From Chloroflexota bacterium (GTDB lineage: Bacteria > Chloroflexota > UBA6077), in assembly GCA_021845945.1 (NCBI GenBank), contig JAJZRD010000198.1, positions 1-7,173 of the forward strand: a stretch of 7,173 nt of DNA, given 5' to 3'. The notes under the pieces were generated by a model, which was not told where the DNA came from, searched no databases, and saw nothing but the letters and a program-made list of their open reading frames with translations. Below are positions 158 through 7,173 of the stretch, piece after piece (position 1 is the first letter of the stretch; every line of letters begins with the position of its first letter). A program made the position numbers and the translations under genes.

Positions 158-724
158 ATGGACTCGATCGACCGCTATCTCGCCGAAGTCGCGGAGATGG
201 TTAGCGCGCTCCCGAGGGACGACATCCGGAGGGTGGTGGAGGCCGTGCGGGAGGTGAGGGACGCGGGCCGGCGGCTGTTCATCATGGGAAACGGGGGTAG
301 CGCGGCCACCGCATCTCACATGGCCTGCGACCTGGCCAAGACGTCGACCTCCGATGGCGAGAAGCGGATCATGGCCACAGCCCTCACCGACAACGTGCCG
401 CTCATGACGGCTTGGGCCAACGACTCGGCGTACGAAGACGTGTTCGCCGAGCAGCTTCTGAACCTGGTCCAGCCGGGCGATCTGGTGATCGCCATCAGCG
501 GCAGCGGGAACTCGCCGAACGTCCTCAAGGCGGTCGAGGTGGCCAAGAGGGCCGGAGCGACCACGGTGGGATTCACCGGCCGGTTTGGTGGTAGACTGGG
601 GGAGATCGCGGACATAGCGGTGAGGGTACCGGGCAACCGGATCGAGCAGGCCGAAGACGGGCACATGATCCTGGACCATGTGATCGCGGTGGCGCTGAGA
701 GAAGAGGCGGGAGTGCCGGATTGA
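158..724 (+). CDS. SIS-domain phosphosugar isomerase, GmhA-like
   Basis: This is a 188-residue cytoplasmic protein, close to the usual length of sedoheptulose-7-phosphate isomerase (GmhA). That family makes D-glycero-manno-heptose 7-phosphate for surface glycans. SIS signatures are clear: GNGGSAATASH at residues 44-54, AND at 87-89, and SGSGNSPNV at 114-122. By alignment from memory with E. coli GmhA, metal/catalytic positions H61 and H180 are kept as H54 and H174. E65 appears as D58 and Q172 as E166, so the exact substrate is not certain. ATG 158 is chosen because GGAGG (148-152) lies 5 bases upstream; an in-frame GTG at 143 would leave that site inside the gene. The stop TGA (722-724) overlaps the start of the next gene, implying translational coupling with the ligase and a role in surface polysaccharide synthesis. 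It could be a related SIS isomerase rather than true GmhA. Confidence 0.88.
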   Translation: MDSIDRYLAEVAEMVSALPRDDIRRVVEAVREVRDAGRRLFIMGNGGSAATASHMACDLAKTSTSDGEKRIMATALTDNVPLMTAWANDSAYEDVFAEQLLNLVQPGDLVIAISGSGNSPNVLKAVEVAKRAGATTVGFTGRFGGRLGEIADIAVRVPGNRIEQAEDGHMILDHVIAVALREEAGVPD

Positions 725-2295
725 CGGTGATTCGCCTTACAGCTAAGGATGATAGTGCTGTGGGGGCCGGCCGCAGGGTTGCAGCCGGCCCCCTTGGCAC
801 TGTGCTCGATATCGGGGTTCCGGCCCTGGCCGGCCCGCTGCTGCTTTTCCCCCGTGGGGCGCTGCCGCTGGCCGGCCTGGCGGCCATCGCGGCGTTGTGG
901 GTGGCGAGGTGCGTTGTCTGGAGAACCCCTTACGGGGCGAAGCCCCTCGGCCTGCCCATGCTTCTCATCCTCGTGATGGCGGCTCAGTCGCTCTATCCGT
1001 CGGTGGACCTCTGCCTGAGCCTGCCGAAGCTGTACGGCATCGTCCTGGGCGTCGCGATCTACTTCGGCGTCGCCGATGGGGTGCGGAGTCGGAGGTGGTG
1101 GTGGGTGGGGGTGGCCCTGCTGGTCGTGGCCGCCGTCGGTGTGGCGGCCGTGGGGCTGGTGGGCACCAGCTGGCTGGACAAGCTGCCGGGGAGCGCGGCG
1201 GTCTACAACCGGATCCCGCGCGTCATAAGCTCCATCCCCAGCTCCTTCGGCACCATCGCCGGCATCCATCCCAACGAGGTAGGGGGGACGTTGGCGTTCC
1301 TACTGCCAATTCCGCTGGGACTTCTGCTGTGGTCGATCAGGCTTCGTAGGGGCGGTTCGCGAACCGCCCCTACAGGGGTGGGGGTGACGAGCCGGGCGGC
1401 AGGGCACAGGGCCCTGCCCTACGTTTCTGCGGTGAGCTTGCTCACGGCCGGGCCGGTGCTGGTGCTGACTCAGTCCCGAAGCGCCCTCATAGGGACCGCC
1501 GTGGCGGTGGCCGTGCTGCTCGCCCTGCGCTGGCGGCGGGTTGGATATCTGCTTGCGGCAGTGGCACTCGTGGGGACGATAGCTCTCGCTGTGATCGGTC
1601 CCCAGCGGGTGTACGACTGGGCGGTGCAGCTGGACCAGGCCAGCCGGACCGGAGGGTCCACCCTGGCCAGCCGCGAGGAGGTGTGGAACCGCGCCCTCTA
1701 CATGATCCAGGACTTCCCCTTCACGGGGATCGGGCTGAACACGTTCCCGAGGGTGCTGGACACCCTCTACCCATCCTTCCTGGCGGGGCCGGACGCGCGG
1801 ATCCCCCACGCCCATAACATCTACCTGCAGACGGCGGTGGACCTGGGGCTGGCGGGATTGATGGCCTTCGTGGGGATCTGGATGATCGTCGCGTGGCAGG
1901 CGGTGCAGGCCTACCGGCGGGCGGAGGGGTTGATGCGGGGCGCCATCGCGGGGCTGGGGGCCGGATGCCTGGCCTACCTGGTGTACGGGATCACCGACGC
2001 CATCACCCTGGGGGCGAAGCCGCTGCCGCTGCTGTGGGCCATGGTGGGGTTGATCGTGGTGGCCAACAGGTTGTTGCCCACCACGAAAGAGTCAAATAAA
2101 GAATCTATTGGGGACACCCCAAACCCCGCCCAGGCCGCGACGCTGCGCTCGCTCGCGTCGCGTGCCCTGGACCCGCTCTCCGTGCTGCGAGAGGTCGGCA
2201 GGACGGTGTGGATGCTGTACTGGACGGTGGCGCTGTTCTTCGCGGGGATGGCCTACCTGGTGGTGGGGATCTCCATCAGCGGGTGGGTGCCGTAG
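721..2295 (+). CDS. O-antigen ligase / Wzy-type polymerase family membrane protein
   Basis: A 524-residue integral membrane protein with about 12 hydrophobic segments (roughly 31-66, 79-90, 103-119, 127-147, 187-206, 234-293, 372-449 and 497-518). Family hallmarks are visible: HPNEVGG (183-189), QSRSALIG (251-258) with the conserved Arg after a helix, a large loop with REEVWNRAL (318-326), GIGLNTFP (336-343), and HAHNIYLQ (363-370) followed by DLGLAGL. WaaL/Wzy proteins join or polymerise undecaprenyl-linked glycans on the outer face of the membrane. The TTG start at 721 overlaps the isomerase stop (TTGA) and has GGGAG at 709-713, 7 bases upstream. GTG 802 is a possible alternative start with no clear binding site. 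Three palindromes lie in frame at residues 12-27, 209-234 and 463-467, all outside membrane helices. A C-terminal extra helix follows a linker of unusually AT-rich codons. Ligase versus polymerase cannot be decided from sequence. Confidence 0.87.
   Translation: MTVIRLTAKDDSAVGAGRRVAAGPLGTVLDIGVPALAGPLLLFPRGALPLAGLAAIAALWVARCVVWRTPYGAKPLGLPMLLILVMAAQSLYPSVDLCLSLPKLYGIVLGVAIYFGVADGVRSRRWWWVGVALLVVAAVGVAAVGLVGTSWLDKLPGSAAVYNRIPRVISSIPSSFGTIAGIHPNEVGGTLAFLLPIPLGLLLWSIRLRRGGSRTAPTGVGVTSRAAGHRALPYVSAVSLLTAGPVLVLTQSRSALIGTAVAVAVLLALRWRRVGYLLAAVALVGTIALAVIGPQRVYDWAVQLDQASRTGGSTLASREEVWNRALYMIQDFPFTGIGLNTFPRVLDTLYPSFLAGPDARIPHAHNIYLQTAVDLGLAGLMAFVGIWMIVAWQAVQAYRRAEGLMRGAIAGLGAGCLAYLVYGITDAITLGAKPLPLLWAMVGLIVVANRLLPTTKESNKESIGDTPNPAQAATLRSLASRALDPLSVLREVGRTVWMLYWTVALFFAGMAYLVVGISISGWVP
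754..801 (+). repeat. Long inverted repeat near the 5' end of the ligase gene
   Basis: The 10-bp arms GGGGGCCGGC (762-771) and GCCGGCCCCC (784-793) are perfect and flank a 12-base loop. They are extended in register by AGTGC (754-758) and GCACT (797-801), with GU-type or mismatched pairs between. The hairpin starts 33 bases after the TTG start and encodes residues 12-27, a stretch before the first membrane helix. It could slow early translation or be an inserted palindromic element; which one is inference. Confidence 0.75.
1346..1422 (+). repeat. Palindromic composite element inside the ligase gene
   Basis: Two hairpins lie side by side. The first is a perfect 28-bp palindrome at 1346-1373 with 14-bp arms (GTAGGGGCGGTTCG and its reverse complement). 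The second has arms GGCAGGGC (1398-1405) and GCCCTGCC (1411-1418) with loop ACAGG, followed by CTAC. The block is framed by GTAGGG at the left end and CCCTAC at the right end. It encodes residues 209-234, a Gly/Arg/Thr-rich loop (RRGGSRTAPTGVG) between two membrane helices, and does not break the frame. The second hairpin and its flanks recur at 4906-4938. It looks like a REP-like element that inserted in frame. Confidence 0.78.
2108..2122 (+). repeat. Small perfect hairpin in the ligase C-terminal linker
   Basis: TTGGGG (2108-2113), ACA, CCCCAA (2117-2122) form a perfect 6-bp stem with a 3-base loop, followed by ACCCCG. It encodes residues 463-467 in a linker between the last core helix and an extra C-terminal helix. 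The codons just before it (about 2086-2107) are AT-rich compared with the rest of the gene, which fits a locally inserted segment, though short stems like this also occur by chance. Confidence 0.4.
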
Positions 2296-2502: not shown

Positions 2503-2531
2503 TGCAAGGCATTGCGCATGATTGCCTTGCA
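2503..2531 (+). promoter_or_regulatory. Candidate VapBC operator (9-bp inverted repeat)
   Basis: TGCAAGGCA (2503-2511) and TGCCTTGCA (2523-2531) are perfect inverted repeats with an 11-base spacer. Their centres are 20 bp apart, about two helical turns. The right arm overlaps the likely -35 element of the antitoxin promoter. VapBC complexes are known to repress their own operons through inverted repeats bound by the AbrB-type domain. Extra TTGC-type half sites occur nearby (2472, 2486, 2512, 2557), which would allow cooperative binding. The binding role is inferred from position and symmetry. Confidence 0.55.
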
Positions 2532-2550
2532 GATGCCCGCTGCCTATGCT
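2522..2550 (+). promoter_or_regulatory. Candidate sigma-70 promoter for the toxin-antitoxin operon
   Basis: TTGCCT (2522-2527) and TATGCT (2545-2550) are separated by 17 bases and sit just before the antitoxin ribosome binding site (AGGAGGT, 2561-2567). An overlapping -10 alternative is TAGAAT (2551-2556). Each box matches the consensus in four or five of six bases. The short distance to the binding site would give a very short leader, which makes this tentative. Confidence 0.35.
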
Positions 2551-2574
2551 AGAATATTGCAGGAGGTAAGGACG

Positions 2575-2856
2575 ATGCGAAGAGCTGGTGCACTTATGGT
2601 GCCGGAAATTGCGGGCGACGCCACCCTGACGGCGAAGAATCAAGTAAGCCTGCCTGCGAAACGGATGCGCGAACTTGGCTGGGAGAAGGGCGACAAACTG
2701 ATCGTCGAGGTTCTGGGTGAGGACATGCTACTTCTCGTGCGTCGGCCCGCTCGTTGGACCGATGCTTTTGCCGGACGGCTTACCCACGTGTTCGGTACTC
2801 ACGAGGAGAACGTGGAATGGATCGAACGTGAACGCACCAATTGGACCGAGGAGTAG
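2575..2856 (+). CDS. vapB: VapB-type antitoxin, AbrB/SpoVT-like DNA-binding domain
   Basis: A 93-residue protein with a swapped-hairpin AbrB domain at about residues 16-59 (TLTAKNQVSLPAKRMRELGW, then GDKLIVEVLGEDMLLLVRRP). This is the usual DNA-binding and dimerising part of VapB antitoxins. The charged C-terminal tail (about 60-93, with WTDAFAGRL and ENVEWIERERTNW) is the part expected to wrap and block the toxin. ATG 2575 is chosen because AGGAGGT (2561-2567) lies 7 bases upstream; an in-frame ATG at 2512 would put the promoter and operator inside the gene. The toxin gene starts 9 bases after the stop. The inverted repeat at 2503-2531 suggests self-repression. The family is clear; the exact VapB subfamily is not. 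Confidence 0.87.
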   Translation: MRRAGALMVPEIAGDATLTAKNQVSLPAKRMRELGWEKGDKLIVEVLGEDMLLLVRRPARWTDAFAGRLTHVFGTHEENVEWIERERTNWTEE

Positions 2857-2865
2857 GGCAGACAG

Positions 2866-3336
2866 ATGAACTCGGCTGCACTTGACCGGGCGATAGGTGA
2901 TGCGCACCGAATCCTGCTGGACACCAGCGCACTTATCGCGTACCACAGCACAGCCGAACTGGTGCATCCGCTCGCTCGGCACCTGCTGGGCCGTATCGAG
3001 GAGGCTTCCGATCCTCTCACGGGTTACTTTTCGGTGGTTAGTGCAGCCGAGTTGCTCGTGCGCCCTTATCAGAGAGGAACCCCTGAGCTGACCCTCATGC
3101 ACACGTTCTTGGCGGGATTCCCAAATCTCACAGTGCTGCCAGTGGACCTGGCGATCGCCACGCAAGCAGCCACCCTTAGAGCGATAAGCGGGGTTCGTAT
3201 GCCAGACGCAATGATCGTGGCCACCGGCCTCCTCTCGGGGTGCGAGGCCATTGTCAGCAACGATGAGCAATGGAAACGAAGAATGGAACCGCTCTTCCGT
3301 CAATTCAGGTGGGTGTACCTGGGCGCCTTCGCGTAG
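2866..3336 (+). CDS. vapC: VapC-type PIN-domain ribonuclease toxin
   Basis: A 156-residue PIN-domain protein, slightly longer than typical VapC (about 130-140) because of about 15 extra residues before the first strand. The four acidic metal-binding positions are present: D19 in ILLDTSALIAY, E62 in SAAELLV, D114 in RMPDAMIVATG, and D133 in IVSNDEQW. VapC toxins cleave RNA, commonly tRNA or the 23S sarcin-ricin loop, in a Mg-dependent way; the target here is unknown. GAGGAG (2848-2853), inside the antitoxin gene end, is the nearest binding site to ATG 2866 but is 12 bases away, so translation may depend on coupling to the antitoxin. The gene ends inside a strong hairpin (3312-3348). All catalytic residues are intact, so it is probably active. 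Confidence 0.9.
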   Translation: MNSAALDRAIGDAHRILLDTSALIAYHSTAELVHPLARHLLGRIEEASDPLTGYFSVVSAAELLVRPYQRGTPELTLMHTFLAGFPNLTVLPVDLAIATQAATLRAISGVRMPDAMIVATGLLSGCEAIVSNDEQWKRRMEPLFRQFRWVYLGAFA

Positions 3337-3424: not shown

Positions 3425-4495
3425 TCAGCGCACGGGGATGGGTCCCGTCCCTGCGCTGGCCAGCGCACCGCGAGCCAGCAGCGAGCCCTGGGTCAGCAGC
3501 TTGCCGGCCTCGGTCGGCTGCCCCGAGTCGTCCAGGAGATAGAGGGCGTTGGCTGCTCCCGCCCAGGGGTCGGGTGCCGGGTTGGTGCCGAAGATGAACC
3601 AGCGATCCACCCCTTCCTGCTCCAGCCACGGAACCAACTCCGCCAGGTAGGCGGCGACCTCGGGCCAGGCATAGTTGACTCCGCGATACAGGGAGTCGGA
3701 TCCCCTCACGATCTCCCGATATCCCCAGATGGTTCCCATCTCGGTGACCCAGATGGGGGTCGTCTGATGTCCCGGGATCGACCGGACGTAGTCACGGAAG
3801 TCCGTGAACAGCAGCTTCGAGTAGGCCATATCCACCATGGGCAGCTTCTTCCACTCGGGATCGAAGCTGTAGATGTGGAGGCCCCATACGTCGACCGGGG
3901 GCTCCGTCCCATAGCGGGACCGATATGCGGCCCGGAAGCTGTCGATCCAGGAGCGATAGCCGCCGCCCCAGTTGAAGAGGTTGGGGCCTACCAGCCTGGC
4001 GGTGGGGTCGGCCTGCTTCAGGGCCACCGCGTAGTCGTGCCAGATCTGGGCGTAATAGTCGAAACGCTGCTGGCCCCGAGCAGCCAGGAACGGATCGCGA
4101 ACCAGGTCCTGGCCCTCGAGATCGGGCTCGTTGAACACCATCCAGTAGTGGCCCGGGCGGAGATGCGCCTGCTGCGCAACGCGCTCGATGGGCGCGCGGT
4201 TGGTCTCCCCTCCGCGGAGGACACCGACCTTCTGTGTGCCCCAGGGTTCGTCGTCCAGTCGATAGGAGTAGTCGTAGTACCAGTCCAGGTTGAGTTTCCG
4301 CAGTCGCTCGACCACGGGGGCGGGCTGGGCTTTCGGCCCCACGACGGCAACTCCGCCGCGGGGGTATGCCGTGGGCGCAGCCGCAGCAGACTGGCCAGGC
4401 GGGACGAGGGCAGGCAGGACGATGGCGAGAAGCGCCACGATCCAGGGAAGGAGGAGCTTGAACGGAGCACACGGACGCCGCGACGGCCTGAACAT
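3425..4495 (-). CDS. Secreted glycoside-hydrolase-like protein (GH-A clan fold, Asl1/GH128- or GH39-like)
   Basis: A 356-residue exported protein. The N-terminus has basic residues, a hydrophobic core (about 12-31) and a likely signal cleavage near QSAAAAP (35-41). The rest is a TIM-barrel-type glycosidase. VFNEPD (120-125) supplies the acid/base Glu E123 and PIWVTEMG (247-254) the nucleophile Glu E252, the usual beta-4 and beta-7 placement of clan GH-A. Other barrel features are DWYYDYSYR (71-79) and DVWGLHIYSF (202-211). The end (DRWFIFGT... NALYLLDDSGQPTEAGKLL) is typical of these enzymes. Substrate is unknown; a beta-glycan is plausible. ATG 4495 follows GGAAAAGGGG with 5 bases spacing. 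The gene is preceded by a cyclic-di-GMP-I riboswitch (4553-4650), so its expression is probably set by that second messenger. A paralogue lies at 6658-7173. Confidence 0.82.
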   Translation of the reverse strand: MFRPSRRPCAPFKLLLPWIVALLAIVLPALVPPGQSAAAAPTAYPRGGVAVVGPKAQPAPVVERLRKLNLDWYYDYSYRLDDEPWGTQKVGVLRGGETNRAPIERVAQQAHLRPGHYWMVFNEPDLEGQDLVRDPFLAARGQQRFDYYAQIWHDYAVALKQADPTARLVGPNLFNWGGGYRSWIDSFRAAYRSRYGTEPPVDVWGLHIYSFDPEWKKLPMVDMAYSKLLFTDFRDYVRSIPGHQTTPIWVTEMGTIWGYREIVRGSDSLYRGVNYAWPEVAAYLAELVPWLEQEGVDRWFIFGTNPAPDPWAGAANALYLLDDSGQPTEAGKLLTQGSLLARGALASAGTGPIPVR

Positions 4496-4509
4496 GGCAG
4501 CCCCTTTTC

Positions 4510-4554
4510 CGGGACCGCCAGGACGGCCGTTGCGCGCGGCTCGATGCGTCCTGG
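4510..4554 (-). promoter_or_regulatory. Predicted riboswitch expression platform
   Basis: In the minus-strand RNA, CCAGGACG (4554-4547) pairs perfectly with CGUCCUGG (4525-4518), with an inner GCCG/CGGC stem. Its 5' arm shares two bases with the 3' strand of aptamer stem P1. Just after it, CGGUCCCG (4517-4510) is perfectly complementary to CGGGACCG (4650-4643), the 5' strand of P1, and abuts the ribosome binding site GGAAAAGGGG (4510-4501). Ligand-bound P1 and this alternative pairing exclude each other, which suggests control of translation start. There is no U-tract, so termination control is less likely. Confidence 0.5.
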
Positions 4555-4650
4555 GACTTCGGTAGCCCTGCCGCCATCGCCCCCGAGAGGGGCCTTAGGC
4601 CATCGGCTTTGCGTCCCCACCTTTCGGTGGGTTTGCCTTTATCGGTCCCG
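4553..4650 (-). promoter_or_regulatory. Cyclic-di-GMP-I riboswitch (GEMM-I) aptamer
   Basis: The minus-strand RNA carries the full GEMM-I pattern in order. It has the P1 strand CGGGAC, GGCAAACC, a CCCACC-GAAA-GGUGGG hairpin with GNRA loop (4631-4616), GGGACGCAAAGCC, the receptor half CCUAAG (4599-4594), a GC-rich hairpin, the receptor half GAUGG (4578-4574), GGGCUACC, and the P1 closing strand GUCCC (4557-4553). By recalled Vc2 numbering, G20 is at 4636, A47 at 4609 and C92 at 4562, all kept. G at position 20 favours cyclic-di-GMP over the 3',3'-cGAMP variant. It lies 57 bases upstream of the secreted hydrolase start and probably links that enzyme to biofilm or motility state. Confidence 0.93.
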
Positions 4651-4707
4651 ATGGATTCTTATTGGAGGTTCACCCGAGGAGGGTGACCCACCTACAAGAA
4701 TCATCGG
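4648..4707 (-). repeat. Hairpin directly 5' of the riboswitch
   Basis: Four nested stems pair in the minus-strand RNA: CCGAT/ATCGG (4707-4703 with 4652-4648), GATTCTT/AAGAATC (4702-4696 with 4660-4654), AGGT/ACCT, and TCACCC/GGGTGA around loop TCCTC (4680-4676). That is about 22 base pairs with small bulges. It ends where aptamer stem P1 begins. It could be a leader stem that protects the 5' end, a read-through barrier after the upstream gene, or a DNA repeat; no T-tract follows it. Confidence 0.6.
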
Positions 4708-4810
4708 CTGATGAAGGCGTTTTCTTTAGAGGCTACAGGTGGCGGGGTGCGCGACGCCGGCCGGAGAGACCGCCGTTTCAGAGGGGGCCGGGGTGACCGA
4801 CGGAGGGGTA

Positions 4811-4869
4811 GCTGGCAGTCGATACTCGGTAGCGGGCGATCACAAGACTACCAGAGATCGGCTGCCAGC
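4811..4869. repeat. 59-bp imperfect inverted repeat between genes
   Basis: GCTGGCAG (4811-4818) and CTGCCAGC (4862-4869) are perfect arms. In the same register CGAT (4820-4823) pairs with ATCG (4857-4860), and GGTAG (4828-4832) with CTACC (4848-4852), leaving a 15-base loop. The nested order suggests selection for a folded RNA or cruciform rather than chance. The nearby AGGTA-C-TACCT (4882-4892) is a further small palindrome. No gene is apparent in 4708-4949. Confidence 0.6.
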
Positions 4870-4905
4870 GACCAACCACTTAGGTACTACCTCTCTTACC
4901 GTGCA

Positions 4906-4938
4906 GCCGGGCGGCGGGGTACAAGACCCCGCCCTACG
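4906..4938. repeat. REP-like hairpin repeat, second copy
   Basis: Stem arms GGCGGGGT (4913-4920) and ACCCCGCC (4926-4933) flank loop ACAAG, followed by CTACG. The 33 bases match 1391-1423 inside the ligase gene at 28 positions. Four of the five differences form two compensated base pairs and the fifth is in the loop. It sits 12 bases after the stop of the minus-strand gene 4950-6323, where it could protect or end that message. The covariation supports a mobile or structure-conserved hairpin family. Confidence 0.75.
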
Positions 4939-4949
4939 CTGCTCAAGTC

Positions 4950-6323
4950 TTACTGTAGCGGCAGAGGAACCACGGCTTCGACGGGCCAGAGCCCGGCCTC
5001 CTTAGCGAGGTCGCCGCCGTTGCCGATTATCACGGTGCCGGCCGTGGCCCAGGGCACGTTCACCTTCCACATTTGGAGGGTGGCGCGCTGCATCCGCACG
5101 CCTACCATCGGCCCGTAATCCTTCACCGACAGAGGCAGACCGAAAGTCTCCTCCCAGTTGGGATCGCTCTGAACGGCGCTCAGAATGGGCGGGTAGGGGA
5201 CCAAGATGGACAGGTGGCGAGCCACGACGGCGTCAAAGGGCAGACCGGTATCCGGGCTGGTGTCGGCCGCGGGAGGTACCTCGCGGAAGGTGTCCAGCCA
5301 GCTATCGTCCCCCCGTCGGTTGAGATCGTCGAAGATGTTGACGGGCACAGCCATGCCCAACTCAGGACGCCACTGCAGGGCCATCTTCTGGAACGTCTGG
5401 GTGATGAAGCCGCCGTGGAAGAAGCGGCCGCTGACGGGGTAACCAACTCGCGGCACACCACCCATCCGCTGGAACTCCGTCCAGAAGGCAGCCGAGTCGT
5501 CGTCGGTGACCGTGAAGCCGGTTCCACCGACGCCTCCGAACCCATTCGACTCCGAGAAGAAGCGTCCGTTGGAGAGGGCGACCTCGCTCCCCCCTGAGGT
5601 GGTGGGCACGATCATGGCCGCGACCACCCCACTGAACGGGACGGTGGCGGTGATCTTACCGTTGGCTGGATCCGGGGAGGTGGGGAGGGCGAGCCAGCCC
5701 TTGTCGGTGAAGATGCCCATGACGATGCGCGAAATGTTCCCTCCGGCCTTGTCCATGTCGGCGGGGGTCGGACTATAGGTCAGCAGCAGCGGCGCGACGA
5801 AGGGGCGCTGCTGGCCAAGTGGGACCATCTCAACCGCCGCGGCCTGGAAGAAGCCGGGGGGCGCCGGCCGTGACATGGCCAGGGAGCCGGGCAACCCCTG
5901 AATCAGCAAGGCGCCGTCCCCGAACAGGATGCCGGCAGACAGGTAGTTGGACCCAAGGGAGCTGCCAAGGGAACCCGGGTCGACAGGAGTGAACACGATG
6001 CTAATGGAGCCTCCGGTCCCAGGAATCGTCACGAAGATGAAGGACAGGGGGGTACCCACGGTGCCACCGCCTGTCGGCACGATCACGACGATTGTGGGGC
6101 CCGAGAGCGTGATACCGCCGGGCAGAGGCGGCAGCGGAAAAGCCGAGGGAGACGGCGGGGCGGGCGCTGGCGGCGGGGGCACGGTCTGACCCAGGGCGGT
6201 CCCCCAACTTCCGCCAAGGCCGGCCACCAGGGCGATGGCCACCGCCACTACCAGAGCGAGCGCGTACCTACCGACCGACTCCCTGAGTCGGCGCCTGGGG
6301 ATGCGGGTGAGTCGATGCAGCAT
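4950..6323 (-). CDS. Secreted Pro-rich protein with tandem Chloroflexota-style C-terminal modules
   Basis: A 457-residue exported protein of unknown function. It has a basic N-terminus, a long hydrophobic segment (about 20-38) and a likely cleavage near TALGQT (42-47), then a Pro-rich stalk (49-67). A beta-rich, Gly/Thr/Val-rich domain (about 70-245) ends VPFSGVVAAMIVP. Two modules follow. The first is FWTEFQRMGGVPRVGYPVSG with a FITQTFQKMALQW continuation (280-318). The second is FGLPLSVKDYG, MQRATLQMW and VPWATAGTVIIGNGGDLAKEAG (394-444). Such modules recur in secreted Chloroflexota proteins and may bind cell wall or glycan (inference). ATG 6323 is chosen because GAGGAGGA (6338-6331) lies 7 bases upstream; ATG 6371 would add 16 residues without a good site. 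It lies between two paralogous hydrolase genes on the same strand. Confidence 0.82.
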   Translation of the reverse strand: MLHRLTRIPRRRLRESVGRYALALVVAVAIALVAGLGGSWGTALGQTVPPPPAPAPPSPSAFPLPPLPGGITLSGPTIVVIVPTGGGTVGTPLSFIFVTIPGTGGSISIVFTPVDPGSLGSSLGSNYLSAGILFGDGALLIQGLPGSLAMSRPAPPGFFQAAAVEMVPLGQQRPFVAPLLLTYSPTPADMDKAGGNISRIVMGIFTDKGWLALPTSPDPANGKITATVPFSGVVAAMIVPTTSGGSEVALSNGRFFSESNGFGGVGGTGFTVTDDDSAAFWTEFQRMGGVPRVGYPVSGRFFHGGFITQTFQKMALQWRPELGMAVPVNIFDDLNRRGDDSWLDTFREVPPAADTSPDTGLPFDAVVARHLSILVPYPPILSAVQSDPNWEETFGLPLSVKDYGPMVGVRMQRATLQMWKVNVPWATAGTVIIGNGGDLAKEAGLWPVEAVVPLPLQ

Positions 6324-6657
6324 CTGCCAATCCTCCTCATCTCGATGCACCGTCGCCGCCTCGGGCATCATCCCTGCGTAACTGGATCTCGCGATCCTCT
6401 CGTGGACGACCGCGGTAGGCGGCGGACCTATCGTCGGGCCACGTCACCACCACCGAGACCGCTCGACAACCATGGTCGAGGGCATCCATGACGGAAGTCC
6501 ATCAGGATATTTGTTGTAGTACCATAGCACAAGGCCATGATCTTGTCTACTACTATTTTTAGCCACATTGATCTTGAGATTAGTTTCGATGTCCGCGCAT
6601 TGGCAGGTATCTCCGTAGGATACTGTGGTGTCGACGATGTACAGAGAGTCCCCATGG
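6324..6657. other. Gene-free stretch with an AT-richer core
   Basis: This 334-base gap precedes the 6323 gene. The 6500-6600 part is clearly AT-richer than its surroundings. I see small inverted repeats: CTCGAC/GTCGAG at 6462-6480, and GGATC/GATCC at 6384-6397 with a GCGA loop on the minus strand. I see no GEMM motif here and no convincing gene on either strand. It probably holds the promoter and leader of the secreted-protein gene. Confidence 0.45.
6521..6549 (-). promoter_or_regulatory. Weak candidate promoter for the secreted-protein gene
   Basis: On the minus strand, TAGACA (6549-6544, five of six to TTGACA) and TATGGT (6526-6521, four of six to TATAAT) are separated by exactly 17 bases. 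They fall within the AT-rich patch, about 200 bases upstream of the gene start. The implied leader of roughly 190 bases is long, and no known riboswitch is visible in it. Confidence 0.3.
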
Positions 6658-7173
6658 TCACCGGGCGGGCGCCGCGCCGGCTCGCGTCCGGTACCGCTCA
6701 CCAAAGGGGGTGAGGGTCAGCGTGCCCGGCTGCAGCAGGGAAATGCCAGCTGTAGTGCTGGCGTAGGGTTCCGGTGGAGGCGCCGTGGCGTAGAGAAACC
6801 AGCGGTCCACCAACCCATCGAGGCTGGAGCGGCTCAGCCAGGATAGCATCTCGTCGACGTACCCGCCGACCAGGTCATCCCGGAAGGAGCCGACCGGCAC
6901 CGCAACGGACTTCCCGTCCCGCTCGACCCACTGAACCCCGTCGAAGCCCCAGATCACCCCAAACTCGGTGAGCCAGAGATGGAGCTGGAGCCCCCTGGAG
7001 TCGAGCCACTCGCGGGCACCCGTGACCTGCGCCTGGTCCGCGGCGGCGTTCACCAGCGGCAGGTGGTCCCAGTCCAGGCTGTAGGCGTGTATTCCCCAGA
7101 CGTCGAGGGGCAGGGGCCCGTACCGCTCCTGGTAGCTGTTGATGAAAGCCTCAGACCAGCCCCGCCCCGCGGG
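6658..7173 (-). CDS. Secreted glycoside-hydrolase-like protein, C-terminal part (paralogue of 3425-4495)
   Basis: The frame enters from the right edge and ends at TGA 6660-6658, giving the last 171 residues; the N-terminus and acid/base Glu lie outside. It clearly resembles the hydrolase at 3425-4495. RYGPLPLDVWGIHAYSLDW matches RYGTEPPVDVWGLHIYSFDPEW, LWLTEFGVIWG matches IWVTEMGTIWG, and VDRWFLYAT matches VDRWFIFGT. The nucleophile Glu is E70 of the fragment (LTEFG). Both end in the same barrel-closing region with LLQPGTLTLTPFGERYR. An in-frame GTG at 7053 is not the true start because the homologous sequence continues upstream of it to the edge. Its regulation cannot be seen here; whether it also has a riboswitch lies beyond the window. 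The substrate is unknown. Confidence 0.82.
   Translation of the reverse strand, partial: PAGRGWSEAFINSYQERYGPLPLDVWGIHAYSLDWDHLPLVNAAADQAQVTGAREWLDSRGLQLHLWLTEFGVIWGFDGVQWVERDGKSVAVPVGSFRDDLVGGYVDEMLSWLSRSSLDGLVDRWFLYATAPPPEPYASTTAGISLLQPGTLTLTPFGERYRTRAGAAPAR

Follow-up and report, generated by a model that had tools for sequence, protein, structure and literature searches.

The window, as the whole 7,173-nucleotide stretch of analysed DNA is called here, contains a c-di-GMP-I riboswitch aptamer that appears, judged from the DNA, to lie in the 5' leader of a gene encoding an exported glycoside hydrolase (Table 1). Aptamer and gene are on the same strand, with a gap of 62 nt between the aptamer end at 4558 and the ATG at 4495. 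Convergent with the hydrolase gene and 1.1 kb from it is a Wzy_C gene, so that the polysaccharide ligase reported near the hydrolase by the first-pass annotation is indeed there; an AbrB/MazE-type and PIN-domain gene pair (VapBC-like, 2512-3336) occupies the interval. Upstream of the hydrolase, a gene for a 473-aa exported protein stands between it and a second, related hydrolase gene.

Table 1. Positions and supporting evidence of the features in the window.
Feature	Position	Strand	Evidence
Wzy_C O-antigen-ligase-type polysaccharide gene	721..2295	+	PF04932, 84.7 bits
Exported GH-A-fold glycoside hydrolase, 356 aa, putative catalytic E123 and E252	3425..4495	-	PF11790, fold, homologues
Predicted 10-bp hairpin hiding the ribosome site and the A of ATG	4495..4520	-	UGGCGGUCCC (4520-4511) with GGGGCUGCCA (4504-4495), folding
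CGGUCCC, also in the 5' arm of the sequestering hairpin	4511..4517	-	7-bp complement of P1 5' strand
Alternative hairpin	4518..4554	-	CCAGGACG (4554-4547) with CGUCCUGG (4525-4518); inverted repeat I5, 8 bp, 100%; folding
Helix P1 3' strand (CG, AA, GUCCC)	4553..4561	-	Folding
c-di-GMP-I (GEMM-I class) riboswitch aptamer	4558..4647	-	RF01051, full length
Helix P1 5' strand (GGGACCG)	4643..4649	-	4649-4645 pairs 4557-4553; 4644-4643 pairs 4561-4560
Exported 473-aa protein, upstream of hydrolase	4950..6371	-	Without Pfam family
Second related hydrolase, C-terminal part, continues past window end	6658..7173	-	36% identity to the first over 149 aa, E 2e-22

The identity of the aptamer is decided by its covariance-model match. 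A cmscan search of the window against Rfam at E values up to 1 returned two matches, of which the sole one above its gathering score was to RF01051 (81.2 bits against 35, E 2.3e-15), and model positions 1-87 of 87 are covered, the aptamer not being truncated. A GEMM-I element had been proposed for the minus strand at 4553-4650, with ends that prove right to within a few bases, and the surplus bases of that call include helix P1. This closing helix, which adjoins the binding pocket, is predicted by folding to comprise seven standard pairs and an AA bulge. Among the 161 Chloroflexota aptamers in the matches listed, the register of P1 seen in the window is the best supported, clearly for the inner pairs (68.9% compared with 15.8-38.5% in slid registers) and weakly for the outer pairs (48.9% compared with 32.7-41.2%). 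The aptamer has a G at RF01051 model position 11, which we take to be the ligand-selective position 20. By its match to the family model, the element is confirmed as a genuine riboswitch of the ordinary c-di-GMP-I class, with c-di-GMP as its predicted ligand. Two imperfect inverted repeats were also observed in the same intergenic region, one a hairpin directly upstream of the aptamer (4654-4702; 22-nt arms, 82% complementary, 5-nt loop) and the other at 4807-4873 (26-nt arms, 77%); no copies of either were found among the matches listed for 265 loci, at E 0.01 in the case of the hairpin.

The gene behind the aptamer had been described from its letters as encoding an exported GH-A-like hydrolase with both catalytic glutamates, and this description is borne out by a Pfam match to PF11790 (Glyco_hydro_cc; 68.2 bits, cut-off 21), by homologues and by the predicted fold. 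Membership in GH39 was rejected, PF01229 scoring below its cut-off (19 against 26 bits). The N-terminus resembles, by eye, a Sec-type signal peptide. Enzymes of clan GH-A carry their two catalytic glutamates at the ends of beta-strands 4 and 7. In a manual count on the predicted model, E123 (in FNEPD) comes right after the fourth barrel strand and E252 (in WVTE) at the end of the seventh, and this putative catalytic pair is invariant in 12 aligned homologues. The two residues also align with glutamates in PDB 6uaq, although the stretch that holds the second is weakly aligned (i-Evalue 37, compared with 0.69 in 6uaw). The fold is predicted to be a GH-A TIM barrel, nearest to the GH128 beta-1,3-glucanases (PDB 6uaw, 6uay and 6uaq), although identity in the listed structural matches is 15-26%. 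The window protein is longer than these glucanases, which share its Pfam family Glyco_hydro_cc, and its likeness to them would be one of predicted fold only. PslG, the hydrolase of the P. aeruginosa psl exopolysaccharide cluster, is also close in fold (17-19% identity); unlike pslG, the window gene stands separate, convergent with a ligase gene and behind a riboswitch.

Residues 240-471 of the 473-aa exported protein match a protein whose listed Pfam domain is GH5 (P0058, 48%), and residues 251-469 match one named 'polysaccharide biosynthesis protein PslG' at its source (P0059, 49%). Chloroflexota or Chloroflexi names are attached to one homologue of the hydrolase and to some of those of the 473-aa protein, and the SIS-domain protein at 155-724 has its closest relative in the genome collection in 'Chloroflexi bacterium UBA6077' (74%). 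The host is thus probably a member of Chloroflexota. The Wzy_C gene of this UBA6077 genome (G001) is 57% identical to that of the window over 500 aa, and near it are found a bacterial sugar transferase, a PAS-GGDEF protein and, of the hydrolase, only a remnant (residues 198-310, in two frames). The PAS-GGDEF protein (L262, 6367-7215) lies between the remnant and Wzy_C, and its GGDEF motif appears degenerate by eye. Seven GGDEF matches were found in this genome, the closest relative by the SIS protein, together with a single c-di-GMP-I match on a different contig from the Wzy_C gene and the remnant. The remnant shows that hydrolase and ligase genes were linked long ago and is neutral toward the riboswitch pairing. 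Taken together, the window and UBA6077 neighbourhoods indicate that the hydrolase is linked to exopolysaccharide-type genes, much as pslG is linked to the psl genes (PMC9075953).

Folding of the leader suggests how the aptamer could act on the gene. Calculations were made for each RNA 3' end with the aptamer core enforced in both states. When P1 is present, the 10-bp hairpin hides the ribosome site; when P1 is absent, the 5' strand of P1 takes the 5' arm of that hairpin, where the segment CGGUCCC has GUCCC in common with the 3' strand of P1. The alternative hairpin excludes both full P1 and the sequestering hairpin. For RNA 3' ends from 4513 to 4499 the structure without P1 is favoured, by up to 10.6 kcal/mol, the value reached at 4503 (-70.6 vs -60.0); from 4497 on, with the ribosome-site arm out, the structure with P1 and the sequestering hairpin is favoured by 1.8 to 5.3 kcal/mol, with 5.3 at 4495 (-77.2 vs -71.9) and 3.9 at 4480. 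Since the form without P1 is preferred early and the form with P1 and hairpin later, a ligand that holds P1 cotranscriptionally would commit the RNA directly to the closed state. Among 2000 dinucleotide shuffles of the platform, 26 contained an equally long complement to the P1 5' strand, 197 buried the ribosome site to the same degree, so that burial by itself is not rare, and 2 did both; these counts are after the fact, since the two-state model was conceived on the present leader sequence alone. An earlier candidate for the anti-sequestering pairing (4568-4560 with 4517-4511) was dropped, at -76.7 against -82.6 for P1 with the sequestering hairpin, and an intrinsic terminator was likewise rejected, the single terminator-like site of the region being on the plus strand.

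These mutually exclusive structures suggest, on the modelled pairings, a translational OFF switch of the Vc2 type. Excerpts of PMC9262584 describe Vc2 as such a switch, with the stability of P1 as the key factor. Like this Vibrio element, the window element matches the whole aptamer model of RF01051, and P1-dependent masking of the ribosome site is proposed for its leader; unlike Vc2, it has a Chloroflexota-like host and a GH-A hydrolase as its target, and its alternative pairings were derived from this leader alone. Direct control of the hydrolase is the best reading because the aptamer lies in the 5' leader together with a plausible two-state expression platform. On balance, the riboswitch probably governs translation of an exported GH128/PslG-like glycan hydrolase and turns it off at high c-di-GMP. 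More specifically, high c-di-GMP would hold helix P1 and leave UGGCGGUCCC free to pair with GGGGCUGCCA, masking the ribosome site and start codon and switching the gene off. At low c-di-GMP, the P1 5' strand would pair instead with CGGUCCC and CCAGGACG with CGUCCUGG, so that the ribosome site would be open during RNA synthesis and the cell would make and export the hydrolase, which would then cut back matrix polysaccharide or set it free. The hydrolase would be a sensible target, and the modelled expression platform is attractive. A fuller proposal can be put forward only tentatively, namely that a cotranscriptional translational OFF switch, with the 3' strand of P1 repeated inside the ribosome-site hairpin, times the PslG/GH128-like enzyme so that exopolysaccharide of the neighbouring gene set is cut only as c-di-GMP falls.

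Several features of the predicted structures count against an OFF switch. At equilibrium without ligand, the ribosome site of the full-length leader is predicted to be buried too, and the ON state would therefore be transient only. The open state, in which the P1 5' strand pairs downstream, leaves GGGG only partly free (0.31-0.55 unpaired), and with the upstream hairpin added the aptamer is broken in the unconstrained minimum (-115.9 vs -111.9 with the aptamer enforced). The weak support for the outer P1 pairs and the frequency of burial among shuffles also count against it, as do the results given below: no shared burial in the leaders of the phylum, no promoter-like site, and no c-di-GMP-I element at the scanned loci of more distant hydrolase relatives. 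The opposite sign of control, in which c-di-GMP raises the hydrolase, for example for remodelling or maturing of the matrix during biofilm growth, is a possible though unlikely explanation. Here the ligand would help the aptamer close and so favour the pairing of 4649-4643 with 4517-4511 around an intact core; helices P2 and P3 can still form in the predicted open structure, where they were enforced. Both signs are known within the family according to excerpts of PMC9262584, Cd1 being an OFF switch and the closely related pilM switch an ON switch, and PslG matters in the biofilm development of P. aeruginosa (PMC9075953, in part). However, that same pairing takes the 5' strand of P1 and therefore excludes P1, a helix on which binding by Vc2 is described as depending critically (PMC9262584, in part).

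Less probable still is an intact aptamer that acts mainly at transcription, through Rho or pausing, or that is uncoupled from the hydrolase. Such a role would agree with the scan of the leader region, in which no promoter-like site was found, and with the lack of shared ribosome-site burial across the phylum. In 69 other Chloroflexota leaders, chosen for a gap of 20-200 nt, a ribosome-site motif and a hydrophobic N-terminus (one gene being counted twice), the mean unpaired value was 0.45 compared with 0.44 after shuffling; the value lay below that of the shuffles in 34 of the 69, and a terminator-like element was present in 8. Against it stand the full-length, high-scoring aptamer, the 62 nt that separate it from the ATG and the absence of any terminator-like site from the minus strand at 4480-4960. 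Sensing of 3',3'-cGAMP instead of c-di-GMP (the GEMM-Ib subclass) is very improbable, for although this subclass belongs to the same Rfam family and an A occurs at presumed position 20 in 17 of 161 Chloroflexota aptamers among the matches listed, the window has a G at the place presumed to be position 20. In a Geobacter element, a change of A20 to G shifts selectivity from cGAMP to c-di-GMP (PMC6456294).

The window joins a known sensor class to a known enzyme type, and this example of their pairing is new. Chitinase genes behind riboswitches of the c-di-GMP-I class have already been published, as excerpts of PMC6366702 indicate; that case resembles the present one in placing a riboswitch of the same kind before a glycan-acting enzyme and differs in that the enzyme is a chitinase, not GH128-like, from another phylum. 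No description of a c-di-GMP riboswitch with the present type of hydrolase was found among the titles and abstract openings listed in searches of the open PMC literature. The first-pass annotation regarded this pairing as little described; it was absent from the other scanned loci of hydrolase relatives. Besides a copy at 99%, the closest homologues (P0002-P0009) are 59-77% identical over the alignment. A hydrolase relative is present in 61 of 400 genomes of the phylum and, class-wide, in 9 of 29 genomes; no c-di-GMP-I element was found near such relatives at 30 phylum loci with flanks of about 1.5 kb, scanned at the Rfam gathering score, nor at 13 class-wide loci, whose genes are partly the same, and the loci scanned were those of more distant relatives. 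Searched with the hydrolase alignment, genome contigs yielded 50 pattern stretches, none of them confirmed as a relative, and viral contigs yielded two distant relatives (27% identity), both without a riboswitch.

In Chloroflexota, c-di-GMP-I elements are common: they occur in 89 of 400 genomes sampled from the phylum to which UBA6077 belongs, in 15 of 61 comprising UBA6077 and its relatives, and in 5 of 24 reached via Chloroflexota-named loci, these three sets overlapping. The census used here comprises 162 c-di-GMP-I rows among the matches listed for these sets and omits 4 of the 150 rows listed from the 400-genome set and one below-cut-off row of the 61-genome set. Downstream genes were chosen by a simple script, which gave none for four aptamers and surely erred in some choices. 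Of the 137 distinct downstream ORFs among the matches listed, 93 carry a hydrophobic segment at the N-terminus, as judged by a crude score without control. Pfam was run on 117 of these ORFs, 20 that were judged spurious-looking being left out, and among the first 25 of 68 families listed were peptidase S8 (16), sortase (12), RuvB (10), trypsin (3) and pectate-lyase-like (2). Glycan hydrolases are represented by a GH113 gene 109 nt behind an aptamer (L092, 231 bits), a GH5 gene 298 nt behind one by its chosen start (L095, 117 bits) and, at 164 nt, an exported-looking 509-aa ORF (L232) that has no Pfam match and appears GH-A-like from its motifs WIIGNEPD and IWLTEMG. Exported GH-A-type enzymes are thus repeated targets, but they do not form a single homologous family.

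The census also yielded several observations on other genes. Sortase genes often lie behind an aptamer (12 of 117, among the matches listed), in several cases behind tandem aptamers, and 13 sortase loci look alike by eye (L102, L103, L120-L122, L125, L128, L132, L134, L177, L184, L192 and L196). An aptamer precedes ruvB in 10 genomes (L113, L135, L178, L180, L183, L188, L193, L195, L199 and L216), with two or three in tandem at 8 of the 10 among the rows used; no description of a c-di-GMP riboswitch before ruvB was found in the literature as judged by titles. Three genomes have an aptamer 92-99 nt before a gene for a sigma-70 family factor that resembles, by eye, a motility or developmental sigma factor (L222, L233 and L239). 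At presumed position 20, the 161 phylum aptamers among the matches listed have 137 G, 17 A and 5 C, with 2 unresolved, and several of those associated with ruvB have A or C; thus, variants that bind cGAMP or other ligands may exist in the phylum.

From the range of downstream genes, it seems that in Chloroflexota these riboswitches regularly connect c-di-GMP with exported proteins, including proteases, sortases and glycoside hydrolases. At the present locus, the cell may make the hydrolase mainly when the biofilm signal is low. If direct control is true, a biofilm second messenger would gate a matrix-sugar-cutting enzyme without a protein regulator, in a poorly known and largely uncultured phylum. 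If the timing proposed for the OFF switch is also true, the leader would constitute an RNA-only dispersal circuit in uncultured Chloroflexota, as part of a wider riboswitch regulon of exported enzymes.
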